From the NCBI GenBank assembly GCA_018644725.1, contig JABGPZ010000070.1, positions 1 through 39,800 on the forward strand: DNA of 39,800 nucleotides. The letters run 5' to 3'. The position numbers and the translations under genes were made by a program. Under the pieces are notes generated by a model, which made no database searches, had not been told where the DNA came from, and was given only the letters and a program-made list of their open reading frames with translations. This stretch comes from Phycisphaerales bacterium. Lineage in GTDB: Bacteria; Planctomycetota; Phycisphaerae; SM23-33. How positions within the stretch are numbered: the stretch's first letter is position 1; each line of letters begins with the position of its first letter. Positions 21,956 through 35,272 of this stretch are shown piece after piece.

Positions 21956-22143
21956 TGCCCTGAAAGGGCAACAGTGTTTAGCCGGGGGCGTGAGCCCCCG
22001 GTGGAGGGCCTCAAGGCAAAGCCCTGAAAGGGCGAAAGAGAAATGTAGGCTCGGTGTTTCTTTCGCCCCTTCGGGGCTCTTTTTATTATGCCTCATTCCG
22101 GGGGCTTACGCCCCCGGCTAAACACTTTCGCGCCTTCGGCGCT
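21956..22143. repeat. Long imperfect inverted-repeat element
   Basis: The 29-base arms at 21973-22001 and 22098-22126 are inverted copies with one mismatch, and each arm is itself a hairpin (CCGGGGGC/GCCCCCGG). Inside, 22021-22040 and 22061-22080 also pair (GCCCT..GGGCGAAAG with CTTTCGCCCC..GGGC). A further GCGCC-TTC-GGCGC hairpin lies at the right edge (22130-22142). There is no open reading frame of note. It resembles the GC-rich palindromic intergenic repeats of planctomycetes, and is probably a non-autonomous repeat family member. Confidence 0.7.
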
Positions 22144-22246: not shown

Positions 22247-25200
22247 TTATTCCCCGGCGGGCTCTTCCTTGTTGGCGTCGGACATGTCCGCCACCAGAGC
22301 GTGCCGGAAGCCGAGCAGCAGCGGGCTGGCCACGGCGACCGAGGAGTAGGTCCCGAAGAGAATCCCCGCGATCAACGCGAAGCTGTAGCTCTTAATCACG
22401 CCGCCGCCGAGGATGTACATGCTCAGGAGCACGATCAGCGTCGTCAGCGAGGTCAGCACCGTACGCGGGAGCGTCTGGTTGATCGAGCTGTTGATGCACT
22501 GGGCGGTGACATAGTTGCGCTTGCCGCGGTTTTCACGGATCCGGTCGAAGACGACGATGGTGTCGTTGACCGAGTACCCGATGACCGTCAGGATCGCCGC
22601 GACCATCGGCAGGTCGATCTTGAAGACGTCGATGCCGAGGCTCTTGCCGAAGCCGGTTTCACCCAGCCAGTGCGATGCCGCAATCAGCCCGACCACGATC
22701 ATCACGTCGTGAATCAGACACACCACCGCCGCGAGGCCCCACTGGAGCGAGCCGAAGCGCAGCCACAGATAGAACACGATCGCCGCCCAGCTGAGGACGA
22801 TGACGATGATTGTCAGGTTGACGGTTTTGCTGGCATAGCTCGCGTCGTGGACGCTGGCGACCATGGCCTCTTCGCGCTGGAGCGATTCGGTCAACACCGA
22901 GCGTTCGAGAGTCGCAAAGGCCTTACGGGCTGCGGCGTCGAAGGATTGGGTGCTGGCGGGCTTAACCAGAACCAGGAACGAGTCATAGCGGTTAGCAAGC
23001 TTGCCCACCGGGATCACGTCGCAGGGGTTCATCGACGCGTCTTTGAAGTCCGGCTGAAGACGGATGTCGTTGATGCGCTTGGTCATTTCCGCAACGGTCA
23101 GCTTGGGCTTGACATTGTCTACTGCCATGACGTGGGCATTGTTCAGCGCGGTGTATTCCACCTGGCTGTAGTCGTTCTTGAGGGTGGTTTCGACCGCATC
23201 GGTGACCTGGGTCACGCCCGTGTCACTCGCGACCAGCCCCAGAGTGGGAATGGCCTTGGAGGCCACGAAGTCGAAGCTGCACGCCGGACGCGTTTTGAGG
23301 TGGTTGCCGAACGCGTGGGTCAAGACCCGACGAATCAGCGCCGCATTGGTCACCGACGTCGAGACGCGGTAGCTTGCGGGGTGATTGTCAACGAGGTATT
23401 CCAGTTCCGCGCGGTCGAGGTTGGAGTCCTTGTTGGTGTCCGCACCGTCGAACCAGGCAACGCTCTTGCCGGCCTTGGTCCAAGCGGCCTTGGTCACGAC
23501 ATCCGCGCCGTTCTTGGCATACGCCGAAAGAATGGTGTGGACGTAGAGGGTTTCGGGTGCCGTCGTAATGCGCGCAAGACGCAGTTCCTTGCACGAGGCG
23601 ATGTCCGCCTGGAGCGTCGCGAGGCGCTCTTTGCGTGTCCGAATCGAGGTCATCAGATCGCCGTACTGCCCTTCCAGCTCTTGGAATTGCTGGGAGAGGT
23701 TCGAACGCTCCTCGTCACTGACGGCGGAGTCGGTCTTTTGCTTGCGAGCGGTTTCGATCGTGGTCTGGGCCTTGTCGTAGGCCGCCTTGGCTGCGTCGAC
23801 CTTGGTCTTCAGCGCGGTGGCCTCGGCGGTGCGGGTCTTGAGTTCCGCGTCCAACTTGGGCTGTTCGGTCTGGAGTTCCTTGGTCAGGTCCGCGAGATAG
23901 GTCGCGACGGCACCGTTGTCACCGAGGAACTTGCTACGCACCAATTCGTCGGTGGGCAGTTTGCCATCGATCAGGGTGTCGTCGTTGAACACGACAGTGA
24001 CCTTCGCGCCGGCGGAGAATTCCACGCCGAACACGCCACGGCCAACCGACAGCAGGCTCGTGATGCCCATGACCATGAAGGCAAGCGAAATGCCCCAGAA
24101 CATGTAGCGCTTGGTCATCCAGTTGATGTTGAACTTCGGGAAGATCCGAAGCATGGTGATGCGATTTTTCAGCAGGCCCATTTTCGTCAGAGCGGCAAAG
24201 CTCCAGCGCGTAACCACCAGGGCGGTGAACATGCTGAACATTACACCCAGCCCCAGCGTCACCGCAAAGCCGCGCACGCGGTTCATGCCGACGGCTTCGA
24301 GGACGTAGTAGAGGAATGCACACACCAACAGCGTCGTGACGTTCGCATCGAAAATCGCGCTGAAGGCCTGTTCGTAAGCGTTCTTGATCGCCATGGGCGT
24401 GCTCAATCCGCGTTCCTGTTCTTCGCGGAAACGTTCAAAGATCAGCACGTTGGCATCCACGGCCATACCGATCGTCAGGATCAGACCGGCGATGCCCGGG
24501 AGGGACAACTCAACCTGGAAGAGGCTCATCGCGCCGAGCACGAACACCATGTTCAGCACCAAGGCCGACACAGCGATCAGGCCGTTGAAGAGGTAATACA
24601 CGAGCATGAACACGGCCACGGCCAGCAGGCCGTAAATCGCCGAGTTGACGCCTTTGACGAGGTTCGCGCCACCGATTTCGGCACCGAAGACTTCTTCGCT
24701 GACGGGCTCGGGGTTGATCTTGCCCGGCATGCGCCCGGCTTCGAGGATCCGACACAGCGCGTCCACTTCTGCGGCGGTGAAATTACCAGTGATAATTCCG
24801 CGGTCGCTGATGGTCGACTGAATCGTAGGCGCAGAGTACACTTGGCCGTCAAGAAGAATCGCCATTGCCCGATTGGTGTTGTTACGGGTGAGCGTCTCCA
24901 TTTTATGCGCGCCGCGTTGATCAAACGCAAAGTGGACCGCCCAACCGGTATTCGAGTTGTTCCGGCCACGCCGTGCGCTGGTCAGTTGCCAGTCTTGGCT
25001 GGGATCAACGCCAGGCTCGTGGATGAAACGCTCACTGCGGCGGTTGCTCAGCAGGATGTAGTTCTTGCCGGCGTAGCTGTAGTTGATGAACTGATCGACG
25101 TTCATGTCGTCCCGTGCGGGATACCATGCGAAGTCGTCCTGCTTGATACGCAGTGCGTCCGGGCCGTTGAGTTCGAGGTTGTTTTCGTAGCCACGGATAT

Positions 25201-26146
25201 CTTCGATCGTCAGGCCCGATGTGGAATCCGCCGGAATGTGGAAGGTCAGCTCGCCGGTATTGCGGATCAGGCGCTTCACATCGGCGGGGTCTTCCAGCGG
25301 CTTGCGGACGACGACCCACTTGGAGTAAGCCGCGTTCATCGTCTCGATGAGGGCTTTCTGGAGGGGGTGCGCCTTGAGGAGCTTGGCGATGGCATCGTCG
25401 TAGGCTTCCTTGGCGCCTTCGCGACGGTCGGGGGCGCCAAACTTCGAATCGTCATAGAGCTTGTTGATGTTCACCAAGAGCAGCGGCGCAATGTCGGTCA
25501 TGCGGAGCGCCGTCATGGCCGTGCGGTAGGCGTTCTTGGCGGTGTTGACCGTCAGGCCAATTTTCGTGGCTGCGGCAACGGCGGCATCATAGTTGGAATC
25601 ATCCACGTCCAGCTTCATCGCGGTGGCGACGGCCTTGGCGTGTGCTTCGCGTGCGGCAACCAGATTCGCCTGGGCGGAGAGGGCTGCTTCGAGGCTCTTG
25701 GCGCGCTCCTCGTCTCCCATGCACGTTTCGATGGCGGCCTTGGTCAGCGCTTCACCTTCGAGCGGCGAGAGCCTGTAGAGATCGCTTTCGGAAATATTGG
25801 TCTCCAACAGGGCTTTCCGCGCAGCAAGGAACACACGCTGAAGCTCTTTGGATTCCTTCGACGGCGAGGGCATCGAAATCGCAATGCGGTTCGATCCGCG
25901 CATCGGCGTCAGCGTAATGCCGCTGAAACCATCGGGGTCGAGACGACGGCGGAGAACTTCGATCATCCGCGTAATCAGCGTTTCGGGATCCGTGTCGTGT
26001 TCATCGATTTTGACCTGAAACTGCATCTGGACACCACCGGCGATGTCCTGGCCGCGCTTGAGGCCGCTGAAGTGCAACGAGCCGACACACAGTGCAACCA
26101 GCAAGGCCACCAGTGTAAATTTCATTGGAAGATTCTTGATATTCAT
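22247..26146 (-). CDS. secDF: Fused SecDF protein-export membrane protein, enlarged, with an EF-hand-like loop
   Basis: SecDF uses the proton gradient to pull secreted proteins across the inner membrane after SecYEG. This 1299-residue protein joins SecD (1 to about 600) and SecF (about 665-1299), against roughly 740-850 in simple fusions. SecD marks are 'LDGQVYSAP..QS.I..RG.I' (P1, about 426-470) and 'GMAVDANVLIFERFR' (about 560). The SecF mark is 'GYSVNDTIVVFDRIREN' (about 1185). Extra length includes a helical block in SecD P1 (about 150-290) and, in the SecF periplasmic loop, a long coiled coil (about 752-856) followed by DTNKDSNLDRAE (903-914), an EF-hand-like loop with Ser for Gly at position 6. 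AAGGA is 6 bases before ATG 26146. Confidence 0.92.
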   Translation of the reverse strand: MNIKNLPMKFTLVALLVALCVGSLHFSGLKRGQDIAGGVQMQFQVKIDEHDTDPETLITRMIEVLRRRLDPDGFSGITLTPMRGSNRIAISMPSPSKESKELQRVFLAARKALLETNISESDLYRLSPLEGEALTKAAIETCMGDEERAKSLEAALSAQANLVAAREAHAKAVATAMKLDVDDSNYDAAVAAATKIGLTVNTAKNAYRTAMTALRMTDIAPLLLVNINKLYDDSKFGAPDRREGAKEAYDDAIAKLLKAHPLQKALIETMNAAYSKWVVVRKPLEDPADVKRLIRNTGELTFHIPADSTSGLTIEDIRGYENNLELNGPDALRIKQDDFAWYPARDDMNVDQFINYSYAGKNYILLSNRRSERFIHEPGVDPSQDWQLTSARRGRNNSNTGWAVHFAFDQRGAHKMETLTRNNTNRAMAILLDGQVYSAPTIQSTISDRGIITGNFTAAEVDALCRILEAGRMPGKINPEPVSEEVFGAEIGGANLVKGVNSAIYGLLAVAVFMLVYYLFNGLIAVSALVLNMVFVLGAMSLFQVELSLPGIAGLILTIGMAVDANVLIFERFREEQERGLSTPMAIKNAYEQAFSAIFDANVTTLLVCAFLYYVLEAVGMNRVRGFAVTLGLGVMFSMFTALVVTRWSFAALTKMGLLKNRITMLRIFPKFNINWMTKRYMFWGISLAFMVMGITSLLSVGRGVFGVEFSAGAKVTVVFNDDTLIDGKLPTDELVRSKFLGDNGAVATYLADLTKELQTEQPKLDAELKTRTAEATALKTKVDAAKAAYDKAQTTIETARKQKTDSAVSDEERSNLSQQFQELEGQYGDLMTSIRTRKERLATLQADIASCKELRLARITTAPETLYVHTILSAYAKNGADVVTKAAWTKAGKSVAWFDGADTNKDSNLDRAELEYLVDNHPASYRVSTSVTNAALIRRVLTHAFGNHLKTRPACSFDFVASKAIPTLGLVASDTGVTQVTDAVETTLKNDYSQVEYTALNNAHVMAVDNVKPKLTVAEMTKRINDIRLQPDFKDASMNPCDVIPVGKLANRYDSFLVLVKPASTQSFDAAARKAFATLERSVLTESLQREEAMVASVHDASYASKTVNLTIIVIVLSWAAIVFYLWLRFGSLQWGLAAVVCLIHDVMIVVGLIAASHWLGETGFGKSLGIDVFKIDLPMVAAILTVIGYSVNDTIVVFDRIRENRGKRNYVTAQCINSSINQTLPRTVLTSLTTLIVLLSMYILGGGVIKSYSFALIAGILFGTYSSVAVASPLLLGFRHALVADMSDANKEEPAGE

Positions 26147-26379
26147 TCCTGTTCCTTCTGTATCTAACGGGTCCACGCCGCCGGCCAACAAATGGCCAAA
26201 CACGACGATTCGATCTGGGCATTGCGGAGCGCGCGACGGGCACCGTGCACCGTAACGAGAAACTCTCCGCAGAATAGGGCGATCATTTTCATGGAAGTCC
26301 GCCCAAAATGCAAGAAAAAAAGGGGTTTACGCGCCTCGGAACGGGGTTTCCTGGTCCATCGGCGACTCCCCGAACACAG

Positions 26380-26805
26380 CTACTTTCGGTTACTGTCGAG
26401 CGCCCGGCACAGGTCTTCAATTTCTTCGCGGGTAAAGTTGCCGGTGATCATGCCCCGGTCGCGAATGGTCGACTGAATTGCCGGGGCAGAATAGACTTCA
26501 TCGTCAACGAGAACGGCCATGGTTCGGCCACGGTTCTCGCTGGTCAGCACCTTCTCTTCATAAGCACGAATGTCCTCGGCCGTCAGGTCGCTCGTTTTAC
26601 TGCCATGCTTCGGCGCGATGCGGAAGCTCAGTTCTTTAGAAACGGGCTTGGGCGCGGAAAGCGAACGATCCTCCACCGTCAAATCGCTGCCTGTCTGGCC
26701 TTGGCGCGAGGTCTTCCGCCCGACACACCCTGCCCCCGAGCCCAGCCATGCAATGGCGAGGCCTGTGATCTGCAGGAAGGTCCAAATGCGTTGTTTCCAC
26801 ATCAT
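26380..26805 (-). CDS. Small exported protein containing an abridged SecD P1 domain
   Basis: This 141-residue protein has an N-terminal hydrophobic signal (about 8-22) ending GAGC27, a possible but non-canonical lipobox. Residues 59-84 (LSFRIAP...LTAEDIRAYEE) match SecD residues about 300-325, and residues 94-136 (RTMAVLVDDEVYSAPAIQS... to DLCRAL) match SecD about 426-470 of the neighbouring SecDF. The stretch of about 100 residues between them is missing. No SecD membrane helix is present. It lies 233 bases upstream of secDF on the same strand, so it looks like a partial, internally deleted duplication that has kept an intact frame and gained an export signal. ATG 26805 has AGGA 11 bases upstream; 26802 is also possible. 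Confidence 0.75.
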   Translation of the reverse strand: MMWKQRIWTFLQITGLAIAWLGSGAGCVGRKTSRQGQTGSDLTVEDRSLSAPKPVSKELSFRIAPKHGSKTSDLTAEDIRAYEEKVLTSENRGRTMAVLVDDEVYSAPAIQSTIRDRGMITGNFTREEIEDLCRALDSNRK

Positions 26806-26951
26806 GGGCGGGTCTTTCCTCAGCCGACGGCTGAACGTGTGAGAGATGTATTGTCCACAGAACCACGCCAAAATCAAGCCAAAAGGACGCAAAACTTAGG
26901 CCCGCCAAAATCGCATCAAAAAGGAGGTTCCCTTCCGAGGCGCGGATGGGG

Positions 26952-26957
26952 TATACT
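26952..26957 (+). promoter_or_regulatory. Candidate -10 box just before the 26964 gene
   Basis: TATACT ends 6 bases before ATG 26964, so transcription could begin at or next to the start codon (leaderless message). There is no clear -35. If this box is used, the in-frame ATG at 26946 (GAGG 5 bases upstream) cannot be the start. Confidence 0.35.
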
Positions 26958-26963
26958 ATTTGT

Positions 26964-28721
26964 ATGTCTACGCCTCGCACATCTGGATTCCCCCGCCCGC
27001 TGCTTCAGCCGCGTCCACGCTGGTGGTGGATCGTGTGTTTGCTCTTGACGATGACCTGCCAGGTTGTCGCGTGCGCTTTCTGGAATTTTCTCCAAACCGG
27101 GCGCTGGCTGGAAATGGCACCCGGCGCAATGCGCAACGCCATCGGCACACCCATCAGCGAAACCATTCTCGGCGCACTGAGCATCTTCAGCTATCCGTGG
27201 ATGCTCGTGGTCTTCGGGGTGGTCCTCGGAATCATCCTCCTGATCCCGCTGGTGATGGCTGCACTCTATCCGCTGTGGTCGGCCCTGCTGGCGGCGATGG
27301 CACTCGTATTCGTCGCGCTCAACCCGATCATGGGCATCGTCGTGGCGATGGGGTGCGTCCTCGTCGCGCGCAACCGCTGGCGCAACACCCACCCCTATGG
27401 CGCGTTGGTGCTGGGCGCATTGCCGACGGGATTGCTGCTACAATTGCTCGTGTTCACCGCGGCCGACACGTCGCTGCTGTTGCCGATGCAACGGTGGATC
27501 CTCGCGATCCCGTTCCTGCTGGCGATGGCGGTGCTTCTCTTGGGCGGGCTGTGCTGTCTGGGACTGGCGAAGCTGCGCAAATTGCGCCCGGGAGCAATCT
27601 GGCCGTGCATCCTGTTGATCGCCATGCCCACCGCGTGGACGTTCTTCCATCAGGTCGGCACCGACGAATTGCACTATGCCCTGCTGCTGCGCGGCGTCGA
27701 AGGCGGCGATGTGATTTTTCCCGCCCAGCCCAGCGAACAATGGAAACAAAAACACGCGCCCCGCTCGGGTGCGCCCCAACTGGCAACCCTCGCCCAGCGC
27801 CAGCTTCAAACCCGGTGCGACGCCCTGCTGGACCGCTGCGACGCGTTCCTCGGCAAGTTCCCCGCCAGCGACCGCGCCCCGGCCGTGGCGTGGCTGTCGG
27901 CCCAGGCGCGTAGCCTCCAACTCAACCGTGCCACGTTGCCACAACTGATTTCCCCCACGGCGGCTTGGCCTGTCGAAAGCGCCCGACCCGCTTGGGAAAC
28001 GCTGTTGCGTCAATGGCCCGACCACCCCGCCGGCGCTCTGGCGAGGCTGCAAATCGCGCGACTGGATTTCCAGTCCATCGCCACCGCCGCCAAGCCCGAC
28101 CCCGCCCATCTCGCCATGGCCGCCAAGGCCAACCAATCGCTATTGGCCGCGCGGGAGACGTTGATCAAAGCCATCGCCGAGCTCGACACCAACACCCAAA
28201 AGCAAACCCGCATGGGTCTGTTCACGCCGCACACCTCCCTGCCAAACCTCGACGACTATCGCCAGGCCCTTCAGGCCGTCCGCGAGCTGCTGTGGAAAAT
28301 CAAGCTCAACGATGTGCTCACCGATCCGCCCTGCGCGTGGTCGATGGGGCGGCTCCTCGCGGCCAACCCCTGTGCTCTGAACTATCTGTACACCCTGCGC
28401 ACGCTCCAGGCCGACCCGGTCATCAAAGCCTCCAAGCTGCTGGACAATGTGCAGATGGCCTATGCGCACCAGCACACCGACCTGCACGACCGGTCCGAAG
28501 CGATGATGCTCCTGGCCAAAGACGAGACGACCGACACCGCCATTGAAGCGACCTACGAACTCGGGCGCATCGCGCTGCAAACCTCGTCCGCGCCGTCCTT
28601 GCCGTTCCGCCTGGAACCGAGCAACGACTATTTCCGCAAGGTCGTCGGCGCCGTGGACAACCCGTGGACATTACAAGCCAACGACTGGCTCAAGCAGACC
28701 CCCTCCGAACCGACGCCATGA
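26964..28721 (+). CDS. Polytopic membrane protein with a helical soluble tail, unknown function
   Basis: This 585-residue protein has six or seven hydrophobic helices in the first 230 residues (from WWWIVCLLLTMTCQVVACAFW to AIWPCILLIAMPTAWTFF). A mainly helical soluble part of about 350 residues follows, with Ala/Leu/Gln-rich segments ('LARLQIARLDF', 'YRQALQAVRELLWKI') suggesting TPR-like repeats. I do not recognise the family. The start is uncertain: ATG 26964 follows a TATACT box, while ATG 26946 has GAGG at 5 bases and would add six residues. Its stop overlaps the next ATG (ATGA), so it is translationally linked to the glycosyltransferase-like gene. Confidence 0.7.
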   Translation: MSTPRTSGFPRPLLQPRPRWWWIVCLLLTMTCQVVACAFWNFLQTGRWLEMAPGAMRNAIGTPISETILGALSIFSYPWMLVVFGVVLGIILLIPLVMAALYPLWSALLAAMALVFVALNPIMGIVVAMGCVLVARNRWRNTHPYGALVLGALPTGLLLQLLVFTAADTSLLLPMQRWILAIPFLLAMAVLLLGGLCCLGLAKLRKLRPGAIWPCILLIAMPTAWTFFHQVGTDELHYALLLRGVEGGDVIFPAQPSEQWKQKHAPRSGAPQLATLAQRQLQTRCDALLDRCDAFLGKFPASDRAPAVAWLSAQARSLQLNRATLPQLISPTAAWPVESARPAWETLLRQWPDHPAGALARLQIARLDFQSIATAAKPDPAHLAMAAKANQSLLAARETLIKAIAELDTNTQKQTRMGLFTPHTSLPNLDDYRQALQAVRELLWKIKLNDVLTDPPCAWSMGRLLAANPCALNYLYTLRTLQADPVIKASKLLDNVQMAYAHQHTDLHDRSEAMMLLAKDETTDTAIEATYELGRIALQTSSAPSLPFRLEPSNDYFRKVVGAVDNPWTLQANDWLKQTPSEPTP

Positions 28722-32299: not shown

Positions 32300-33340
32300 A
32301 TGGACGAGTTTCACCGGATTCTGATCTTGCTGCCCAACCCGCTGGGCGATGCCTTGATGGCCACGCCCGCGATTCGCGCGGTGCGCCTGCGCTATCCCGA
32401 TGCCCACATTGCCATCGCCGGCAAAGGCCTCGTGGTCAAGACGTTGTTCTGCAGCGACCTCGCCGACGAAGCCATCGTCCTCGGCGGATTCTGGCAAAGC
32501 CGCAAACTCCTCCGCGCCGGGAAGTTCGACCTCGCGATGATCTGTCCGGGCAGTTTCCGCTCGGCCGCCGTGGCCTGGCTTGGAGGGTGCAGCCGTCGGG
32601 TTGGCTATCGCCGCGACGGACGAGGCATTCTGCTGAGTGACGCGCTGACGATTCCCCGCAATGCCGACGGAAGCAAACAAGTCTACCCCGCGATTGACTA
32701 CTACCTCGACCTCGCCGCAGCCGTTGACGCCCAAAGCGAATCCAAAGCGATGGTCCTGTCCGCCGACGAAACCGCTGCGGCCGACCTGCTGTCTGGCGCG
32801 GGCTATGACCCCGCCCGCCCGCTCGTGCTGCTGAACCCCGGCGGCGCGTTTGGTCCGAGCAAGCTCTGGCCGATGGAACGCTATGCCCAACTCGCCGACC
32901 GCCTCGTCGAAACCCACAACGCGCAGATCATCATTAATGCTGCGCCCAACGAACAAGCCGCCGTCGCCGCCGTTGCGCGCGCGATGACCGCCACGCCACT
33001 GCTGGACTTTTCCCAGCGCAGCAACACACTCGACGCGCTCAAAGCGCTCGTCGCCGCGGCCGACCTCGTGGTCACCAACGACACCGGCACGCGCCACATC
33101 GCCGCCGCGCTGGGGACCAAGCTGATCACGATCTTCGGCTCGACCGACCCGGCCTGGACGACGCTCGACTGTCCCCACGAAATCACCATCGTCACCGAAG
33201 TCCCCTGTGCGCCCTGCCAGAAAAAACAGTGCCCCATCGACCCTGCCGACGACACCTTCCACCAGTGCATGACCTCGATTCCGACCGAACGCGTTTTCGA
33301 GGCCGCCACCACGCTGCTCGCCGGAGGCTCCCATGAGTAA
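32300..33340 (+). CDS. GT9 heptosyltransferase-family LPS glycosyltransferase
   Basis: This 346-residue protein has the length and layout of ADP-heptose:LPS heptosyltransferases (WaaC/WaaF), which build the inner LPS core at the cytoplasmic face. 'ILILLPNPLGDALMATPAIRAVR' near the start matches the family N-terminal pattern (key pieces PNPLGDALM, TPAIRAVR). 'VLLNPGGAFGPSKLWPMERYA' is the central 'NPGA...K.WP...' motif. 'VVTNDTGTRHIAAALGTKLITIFGSTDP' is the C-terminal donor-binding motif (pieces NDTGTRHIAAALG, IFGSTDP). Donor and acceptor cannot be told. The stop overlaps the kinase gene by 8 bases. No ribosome site is obvious, so it may be coupled to the gene 11 bases upstream. Confidence 0.85.
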   Translation: MDEFHRILILLPNPLGDALMATPAIRAVRLRYPDAHIAIAGKGLVVKTLFCSDLADEAIVLGGFWQSRKLLRAGKFDLAMICPGSFRSAAVAWLGGCSRRVGYRRDGRGILLSDALTIPRNADGSKQVYPAIDYYLDLAAAVDAQSESKAMVLSADETAAADLLSGAGYDPARPLVLLNPGGAFGPSKLWPMERYAQLADRLVETHNAQIIINAAPNEQAAVAAVARAMTATPLLDFSQRSNTLDALKALVAAADLVVTNDTGTRHIAAALGTKLITIFGSTDPAWTTLDCPHEITIVTEVPCAPCQKKQCPIDPADDTFHQCMTSIPTERVFEAATTLLAGGSHE

Positions 33341-34136
33341 CATCGCACCCGCCATCACCGACTTCATCGCCGCACACCGTCTGGACACGCTCGAAGGCGC
33401 GTTCGACTTTGACGGCGGCGCCGACCTCGTCAAGCCCGGCCTGGGCAATCGCCGCCGAACCAAAATCGATCTGCCCGACGCGCCGTCGCTGTTCCTCAAG
33501 CGATACTATCGCCTGCCGTTGTCCAAGCGAATCAAAACGCTACTCAACCCGCGCAAATGGATGTGCGAAGCGATGATCGAGCACAACAACATTCGCGCCG
33601 TCGAAGCGGCGGGACTCCGAACGATGCACCCGCTGGCAGCGGACGTCGAGGGCTCGCTTCTGGGCGGCCGTCGCAGCTACACCCTCGTCGATGCCGTCGC
33701 GGGCGAAACCCTCGAAACCGCCATCGGCCCCCTCGTCCAAGAACGCGGCGAAGAAATCACCGAAGCCATTGCAACGCTCGCCAGGGCGCTCCACCACGCG
33801 GGCTTTGTTCATCGCGATTTCTACCTCTGCCACATCTTCGCCGACACCGCCAACGGCCCGATTGAGCTGTCCCTGATCGACCTCGCACGGGTCATCCGCC
33901 CCTCGCGTCTACGCCAATTCCGCTGGCGCGTGAAGGACCTCTCCCAGCTCTACTACTCCTGCAGCCAGGAATTTCGTGAGGCGCACTGGAACACGCTGCT
34001 CGCGCGCTACCTCGACACGACAAGCAGCTCCGCGACGTTTGTGCGCTGGAATCGCGCGATCCAAGCTAAGGCCGCGCGCATCGCCCGCCACGACCAAAAA
34101 CGACATGCCCGCTTCACCGAAACGAAATCATCATGA
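33333..34136 (+). CDS. LPS core heptose/Kdo kinase (WaaP/KdkA family)
   Basis: This 267-residue protein carries the eukaryotic-like kinase marks of LPS kinases: 'LFLKRYYR' with Lys56 for ATP, Glu79/Glu83 in the following helix, the catalytic HRDFYLCH (160-167, nearly identical to the WaaP motif) and Asp183 in 'LIDLAR' as the metal ligand. It would phosphorylate a core sugar (heptose or Kdo), which stabilises the outer membrane by cation bridging. GGAGG lies 6 bases before the ATG. It overlaps the upstream heptosyltransferase gene by 8 bases and the downstream glycosyltransferase gene by 4 (ATGA). Confidence 0.88.
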   Translation: MSNIAPAITDFIAAHRLDTLEGAFDFDGGADLVKPGLGNRRRTKIDLPDAPSLFLKRYYRLPLSKRIKTLLNPRKWMCEAMIEHNNIRAVEAAGLRTMHPLAADVEGSLLGGRRSYTLVDAVAGETLETAIGPLVQERGEEITEAIATLARALHHAGFVHRDFYLCHIFADTANGPIELSLIDLARVIRPSRLRQFRWRVKDLSQLYYSCSQEFREAHWNTLLARYLDTTSSSATFVRWNRAIQAKAARIARHDQKRHARFTETKSS

Positions 34137-35272
34137 ACATCGCCCTCGTCATTGAAAACTTTTATCCGCTGAAGGGTGGCCGAGAAGCCTCGACTGCCCA
34201 AATCGCTTCGGGATTCGCCGATCGTGGCCATACCGTAACGATCCTCTGTCAGGACGGCGAACCCGGCGACAACCCGGCCGTGACGGTCCGCCGACTTCTC
34301 GGCCGAGGCGGCTCGCGCGCAAAACGACTTCGGAAATTTGCTACCCTCGTCCAGGGACTCTGCCGCGAAGGCGAGTTCGACATCGTCCATTCGATGTTGG
34401 CGATTCCCGGCGTGGACGTGTTCAGCCCGCGCGGCGGATCGATTCCTGCCCAGCTCGCGACCATCCGTCGGCGCGACGGCAAAGGCCGCGAAACCCTCAG
34501 CCGCATCGGGCGCACGGTCAATCTCAAACGACGTCTGGAAGCAAAATTCGAGCGGCAACTCGTGGCCGACCCCAGCACGCTGATCCTCACCAACAGCCCC
34601 ATGGTCGCCGGGGAATATCACCGCTACTATGGCCGAACCGAACATGTCGTCTCGGTCTTCAACGCGGTGGACTTGCCGGACATGGACGAGCAGACTCGCG
34701 CCGAAACCCGAAACGCCATCCGCCTGTCGCTGGGGATCTCCGACGAGGACACACTGCTGTTGACCGCGGCGACAAACTTCCGCCTCAAGGGAGTATACGA
34801 AGCCATCGACGCGCTGCGCTTTACCCCTCCCGACATCCACCTTCTGGCCGTCGGAGCTAACAATCCCGACCCCGCCATGGCCTACGCCAAAAAACGGGGC
34901 CTCGCCGATCGAGTCCACACGCTCCCGCCGCAAGCCTCGCTGATGGGCGTTCTGTCCGCCTGCGATGCGGTGGTTCTGTTGAGCTGGTACGATACGTGCG
35001 CCCGGGTGATCCTCGAAGCGCTCAGCTTCCCGCGCCCCGCCATGACCACAAAACTCAACGGCGTCGCGGAAATCCTTGCATCCGGTGCAGGGTATATCGT
35101 ACAATCCCCCGCCCATTGCGAGGAGGTCGCCGCCGCGTTCGTGCGCCTCTCGTCCCCGTCCCACCGCGAGGCCTGCCTACGCGCCGCGCGCAACATAGGC
35201 GACAAAGCCTCAATGGACCGCCAAGTCGAAGAAACCCTCCACCACTACGAAAGCCACTTGCAATCCCGATGA
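34133..35272 (+). CDS. GT4 family glycosyltransferase (WaaG-like), LPS core
   Basis: This 379-residue GT-B enzyme has an N-terminal acceptor domain ('ENFYPLKGGREASTAQIASGF', shown by pieces FYPLKGG, ASTAQIA). The C-terminal donor domain has 'LTAATNFRLKGVYEAIDAL' and 'LLSWYDTCARVILEALSFPRP', where the E of 'ILEAL' is the retaining-GT4 donor contact. It closely follows an LPS kinase, which is the neighbour arrangement of waaG/waaP in enterobacteria, so it probably adds a core hexose. It starts in an ATGA overlap with the kinase gene and ends in an ATGA overlap with plsY. Confidence 0.85.
   Translation: MNIALVIENFYPLKGGREASTAQIASGFADRGHTVTILCQDGEPGDNPAVTVRRLLGRGGSRAKRLRKFATLVQGLCREGEFDIVHSMLAIPGVDVFSPRGGSIPAQLATIRRRDGKGRETLSRIGRTVNLKRRLEAKFERQLVADPSTLILTNSPMVAGEYHRYYGRTEHVVSVFNAVDLPDMDEQTRAETRNAIRLSLGISDEDTLLLTAATNFRLKGVYEAIDALRFTPPDIHLLAVGANNPDPAMAYAKKRGLADRVHTLPPQASLMGVLSACDAVVLLSWYDTCARVILEALSFPRPAMTTKLNGVAEILASGAGYIVQSPAHCEEVAAAFVRLSSPSHREACLRAARNIGDKASMDRQVEETLHHYESHLQSR

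Follow-up and report, generated by a model that had tools for sequence, protein, structure and literature searches.

An old, internally shortened secDF duplicate in a Phycisphaerales bacterium encodes a predicted exported derivative of the SecD P1 head

Does the small gene that precedes secDF in a Phycisphaerales bacterium encode a working derivative of the SecD P1 domain, or is it the residue of a duplication? The gene lies in a window of 39,800 nt, which is the whole stretch of DNA that was analyzed and belongs to a 2.5-Mb assembly of 112 contigs with 95% completeness. Its open reading frame occupies 26380..26805 on the reverse strand, from an ATG start at 26805 to a TAG stop, and encodes a 141-residue protein that we refer to as mini-SecD. 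A Shine-Dalgarno-like AGGAA (26820-26816) lies 10 nt 5' of the ATG. The frame is codirectional with and 233 bp upstream of secDF (22247..26146, reverse strand, ATG at 26146), which encodes a fused SecD-SecF protein of 1,299 residues with Pfam matches to SecD_SecF_C (211 bits) and SecDF_P1_head (85 bits) and which Pfam and a phylogenetic tree identify as the source of the duplicate. In mini-SecD, Pfam detected SecDF_P1_head (PF22599) with 48.5 bits (E value of 9e-13), well above the cut-off of 27, and found no match to the RND-type membrane core (SecD_SecF_C) in the 141 residues. SecDF and mini-SecD account for the only two PF22599 matches in the source genome. The divergent neighbor of mini-SecD (26946-28721, forward strand) encodes 591 residues with a hydrophobic N-terminal region; it has no Pfam match and was not seen near secDF in relatives.

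The PF22599 match in mini-SecD covers only the second half of the profile (positions 56-109 of 114), i.e., less than the complete head subdomain. An earlier note on this DNA had described the protein as two separate stretches of the SecD P1 domain with the middle removed, a description with which the half-match, the alignments, and the shuffle tests all agree. Stretch 1 (residues 57-86, 26548..26637), a strand plus a helix, is homologous to SecD residues 298-324 (25175..25255), while stretch 2 (residues 87-138, 26392..26547), the second half of the P1 head, is homologous to SecD residues 419-470 (24737..24892), all on the reverse strand. The two stretches are collinear with SecD, and the approximately 94 residues between them (SecD 325-418) are missing. 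Stretch 2 shows 62% amino acid identity to the resident SecD over 52 residues and carries the VDDEVYSAP...GMITGNFT motif. Its DNA gives a local alignment score of 79, compared to a maximum of 26 for shuffled sequences, which upholds the nucleotide resemblance to secDF that had also been noticed. Stretch 1 (ELSFRIAPKHGSKTSDLTAEDIRAYEEKV versus ELTFHIPADSTSGLTIEDIRGYENNL) aligns as ELSFRIAP..LTAEDIRAYEEKV in mini-SecD and ELTFHIPA..LTIEDIRGYENNL in SecD, with a score of 55 that was reached by 1 of 2,000 shuffles against SecD 1-420 and by none of 2,000 (maximum 38) against the first 45 residues of the resident P1. We rejected the contiguous head that MAFFT produces with no deletion, in which stretch 1 falls on the strand-helix directly before stretch 2 and scores only 15 (background) versus 55 at SecD 298-324. 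Since the shuffle tests for stretch 1 favor SecD 298-324, the two-stretch reading is correct. Upstream of these stretches, residues 28-56 form a linker (26638..26724, reverse strand) for which Pfam and a homology search found no homolog. An SDLTxED echo inside mini-SecD, at residues 40 and 72, was spotted by eye.

A complete P1 head is excluded because of the missing sequence. When the heads were aligned across mini-SecD, AlphaFold returned a beta-alpha-beta-beta-alpha model (pLDDT 65, pTM 0.42) whose best structural match was SecDF (5xan_A, Z of 4.0, 3.1 Å over 73 residues), with a Foldseek E value of 0.06. The alignment behind this model puts stretch 1 on nonhomologous residues, and a run in which only stretch 2 was aligned gave a pTM of 0.30 and lost the first strand. 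Since the first strand is lost with the less guided alignment, we do not rely on the beta-alpha-beta-beta-alpha model. The predicted fold thus depends on the alignment used, and its resemblance to a P1 head is tentative. Similarly, the idea of a free copy of P1 holds insofar as mini-SecD is a separate gene made of P1 stretches, but what it carries is about half of the head. The SecD P1 head (PF22599; PDB 3AQO and 5XAN) is nevertheless the best match in both sequence and structure, sharing the DDEVYSAP / G-I-GNFT motif. Compared to it, mini-SecD lacks the first half of the head, the P1 base, and the membrane helices, and it is a separate gene with predicted export.

The N-terminal 27 residues (MMWKQRIWTFLQITGLAIAWLGSGAGC; 26725..26805, reverse strand) have a charged n-region and a hydrophobic maximum at residues 7-21, and Cys27 (SGAG-C) fits the PS51257-type lipobox pattern with Gly, not Leu, at the -3 position. 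Mini-SecD therefore has, at pattern level only, the signal peptide plus lipobox of a bacterial lipoprotein. This signal is unlike the N terminus of SecDF (MNIKNLPMKFTLVALLVALCVG) and the first SecD transmembrane helix (TM1), from which it does not derive, and mini-SecD contains no SecD membrane helix. The proposal of a signal with a lipobox pattern in place of the membrane anchor thus stands. In the likeliest reading, mini-SecD is an exported, probably lipid-anchored P1-head derivative.

Where did this protein come from? In a tree of P1 regions from the family (192 columns), mini-SecD and the resident SecDF form one clade with support of 100/97, and the same grouping was obtained on fewer columns (84) with 61/95. 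Because the tree joins the two proteins, we consider mini-SecD a resident duplicate, as had been suggested; the tree also rejects an origin from the P1 of another genome or from M56 or kinase domains. The motifs EDIRxYE and LCR are common to mini-SecD and its own SecDF. Gene conversion between the two genes may mimic such a grouping. The pairwise comparison with secDF gave a dN of 0.28 and a dS of 1.37 (52 codons), with identities of 0.73, 0.85, and 0.42 at the three codon positions. Since the amino acid identity is 62% and dS is about 1.4, the duplication is old. Mini-SecD has FRIAP, the general form in SecDFs of the family, where the resident SecD has FHIPA; a motif kept in mini-SecD and lost in SecD means that mini-SecD is no recent copy of today's secDF. 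A recent duplication is ruled out by dS together with this motif. On this alignment and tree evidence, mini-SecD goes back to an old duplication of the resident secDF and is shortened internally.

The earlier note had proposed a search for the same small gene next to secDF in related genomes and had taken its absence as the mark of a decaying duplicate. We did not find it: in about 30 relatives whose contig reaches far enough, no mini-SecD precedes secDF, none was seen beside secDF at 80 loci of named genomes, and mini-SecD as a query against 84,980 species genomes gave no ortholog. The profile search matched SecDFs, plus a free head in genome G006 and a two-headed kinase of G030. Absence from relatives and other loci is what would be expected of a decaying or dead-on-arrival copy, i.e., a functionless tandem partial duplicate of secDF with a chance start and a hydrophobic leader. 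We regard this close rival as somewhat unlikely. The loss of half of the P1 head also speaks for it, as does the dead fragment of its own secDF in another genome (G010), which means that such debris arises, and neutrality on the mini-SecD branch was not rejected (2ΔlnL of 2.5, p of about 0.11). The last result can be explained by saturation at synonymous sites and by the freedom of the model to place the divergence on the SecDF branch. The omega estimate on the mini-SecD branch is low, at 0.17, but with neutrality not rejected, purifying selection on mini-SecD is no more than suggested. At the SecDF columns that are 85% conserved, mini-SecD keeps 22 of 28 residues and its own SecDF keeps 24 of 28. 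Against decay, 62% amino acid identity persists despite a dS of about 1.4, with identity of only 0.42 at third positions versus 0.85 at second positions. Moreover, in simulations of neutral evolution at ~0.7 per site on the mini-SecD branch, i.e., with half of the dS assigned to it, the observed identity was reached in 0 of 1,000 runs and the 141-codon frame was still open in only 3%. Neutral divergence of at least 0.4 per site is unlikely (probability of the identity ≤0.017, open frame ≤4%), and 0.2 per site is compatible with the data. The good Shine-Dalgarno-like sequence and the lipobox pattern also argue against a dead copy.

Weighing this evidence, we favor, at a probability of roughly 0.4, an old secDF duplicate that is now a membrane-anchored P1-head derivative binding exported chains or SecDF and its partners. 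Mini-SecD would leave the cytoplasm through Sec, receive a lipid at Cys27, and stay attached to the periplasmic face of a membrane. There it would act as a detached piece of the substrate-binding head of SecD and bind hydrophobic stretches of newly exported chains. Alternatively, it might dock on SecDF or its partners in place of the P1 head. In the P1 head, precursor chains have been proposed to be bound or held by an amphiphilic cavity (PMC8082313), and mutagenesis has shown that the head is critical for translocation (PMC9508474). A holdase role for mini-SecD alone appears less likely because half of the head is missing, and weak binding of peptides or partners seems the more likely activity. 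The earlier note was right about the anatomy of mini-SecD and over-read its function. In agreement with its statement that it knew of no described role for such a protein, our literature search found no paper on free P1-head proteins or their role.

We also asked whether P1 heads have left secDF elsewhere. Free heads have arisen on separate occasions in other genomes, and those of one genus (g8) are conserved. PF22599 occurs outside SecDF among the 35 genomes of the family, including in free or anchored P1-head proteins (L069, L071, L022, L070, and L072), and many of the 118 genomes sampled from the phylum contain small-frame P1 heads. The additional head of G006 (L070) groups in the tree with the SecDF of that genome (100/99), as do, each with its resident SecDF, an extra copy in G019 (L077 5122-6651, 100/100), which is a divergent neighbor of secDF, and the G010 fragment (L085, 99/93). 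Since heads in several genomes pair in this way with the resident SecDF, the copying-out of P1 heads is recurrent. Beyond the class, a tandem copy of P1 precedes secDF in G104 (50% identity over 369 residues), and G115 has an older P1 copy by secDF. The G010 fragment (L085 290-538) is a dead 82-residue piece of a secDF head with 84% DNA identity over 204 bp and no signal, and it illustrates how P1-head copies start. The free heads of g8 form a single clade that falls among the SecDFs of related genera. They are syntenic, flanked by a purH-like gene at one end and by BlaI-like and M56 genes at the opposite end. By codon-model maximum likelihood, omega was 0.225 for the head part of one g8 pair (L022/L071, p of 2.6e-8), while other g8 pairs gave 0.36 (p of 2e-7) and 0.48 (p of 2e-4) over the whole gene. 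By these estimates, the g8 free heads are kept by purifying selection.

How does mini-SecD compare with these proteins? The free-standing lipoproteins or anchored proteins of Planctomycetota (L069, L071, L022, L070, L027, and L072) likewise combine a signal or anchor with a P1 head in a gene of their own, and several derive independently from the resident secDF. However, they keep the whole head and most are not beside secDF, whereas mini-SecD has an internal deletion of ~94 residues. The partial duplicates of G104, G115, and G019 are, like mini-SecD, P1-containing genes beside secDF, but the first two keep a complete P1, that of G019 is a divergent 509-residue membrane protein, and all three are independent of mini-SecD. 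In Planctomycetota, P1 heads that stand alone or have been shuffled are common in themselves; what is notable here is the internal deletion of mini-SecD and the recurrent births around it. Adjacency is what tandem duplication leaves and is therefore by itself no evidence of joint function, so the position of mini-SecD probably reflects its birth more than its function. Single-species orphan genes beside secDF are easily over-read, and the wider data turn this one into an instance of a testable process, in which one family repeatedly copies P1 heads out of secDF and the copies end up dead, preserved by selection as intact exported proteins, or built into other envelope proteins as domains. A broader view, in which Phycisphaerae have time and again produced detachable SecD P1 heads that partner the Sec motor in the periplasm, with mini-SecD as a minimal half-head version, strikes us as doubtful; such heads would capture or hand on exported chains or tune SecDF. 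Should exported chains or SecDF prove to be bound by free heads, these would offer a natural soluble or anchored handle on the working of the P1 head, which is still debated.

PF22599 is also found within M56/BlaR1-like, Ser/Thr-kinase, T2SSG, HEAT, and ankyrin proteins, and by its distribution the P1 head is a mobile periplasmic domain in these bacteria. Such mobile heads lie at L069 7420-15834, L082 3272-9244, L083 5562-14396, and L084 1125-7316; their hosts are a Ser/Thr kinase with two heads and M56/BlaR1-like peptidases that also contain HEAT, ankyrin, or T2SSG parts. This distribution, together with the BlaI-like and M56 genes that adjoin the g8 free heads, would fit a ligand-binding or sensory module unrelated to Sec, with mini-SecD as a small member of a mobile pool of P1 heads. 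Mini-SecD, however, descends from its own SecDF and not from those domains, and no such gene lies near it within the window, which makes a sensory role improbable.

In being small, carrying an export signal, and preceding secDF in the same orientation, mini-SecD also recalls the secretion monitors VemP, ApdA, and ApdP (PMC10987492), in which a small frame with an export signal likewise precedes secDF. Translation arrest in mini-SecD would then regulate the downstream secDF. The gene arrangement follows the criteria of that paper and the spacer after the signal exceeds 30 residues. Unlike those monitors, however, mini-SecD has no RAPP-like motif (0 of 6 RAPP-like variants) and has a recognizable domain, its C terminus being explained by SecD homology. 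Nor was a Shine-Dalgarno-sequestering structure seen: the 233-bp intergenic region (26147..26379, reverse strand) has no unusual RNA structure and folds less stably than shuffled sequences (z = +1.0). We therefore view arrest as very improbable, and a membrane-anchored P1-head derivative remains our preferred reading. In the same intergenic region, no promoter or terminator pattern was found on the mini-SecD strand.

Other features of the window and of SecDFs deserve mention. The resident secDF encodes an EF-hand-type loop (DTNKDSNLDRAE) at residues 903-914 (window 23405-23440), in the periplasmic part on the SecF side. Strict EF-hand motifs occur in 14 of 46 SecDF frames from the named loci, mainly from Phycisphaerae; SecDFs with such a loop are at L117, L119, L121-L125, L130, L136, L138, L157, L158, L174, and L189, and the SecDF of L087 has a Pfam EF-hand match. 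Judging from these motifs, SecDFs with the loop are possibly calcium-binding. Directly downstream of secDF, two Acido-Lenti-1 RNAs (RF01687) lie on opposite strands, at 21956-22001 (reverse, 46.2 bits) and 22098-22143 (forward, 55.1 bits). Finally, a forward-strand cluster at 32300-35272 encodes a heptosyltransferase-like glycosyltransferase 9, a Kdo/WaaP-type kinase, and a glycosyltransferase 4, suggesting that the source planctomycete may synthesize an LPS core.
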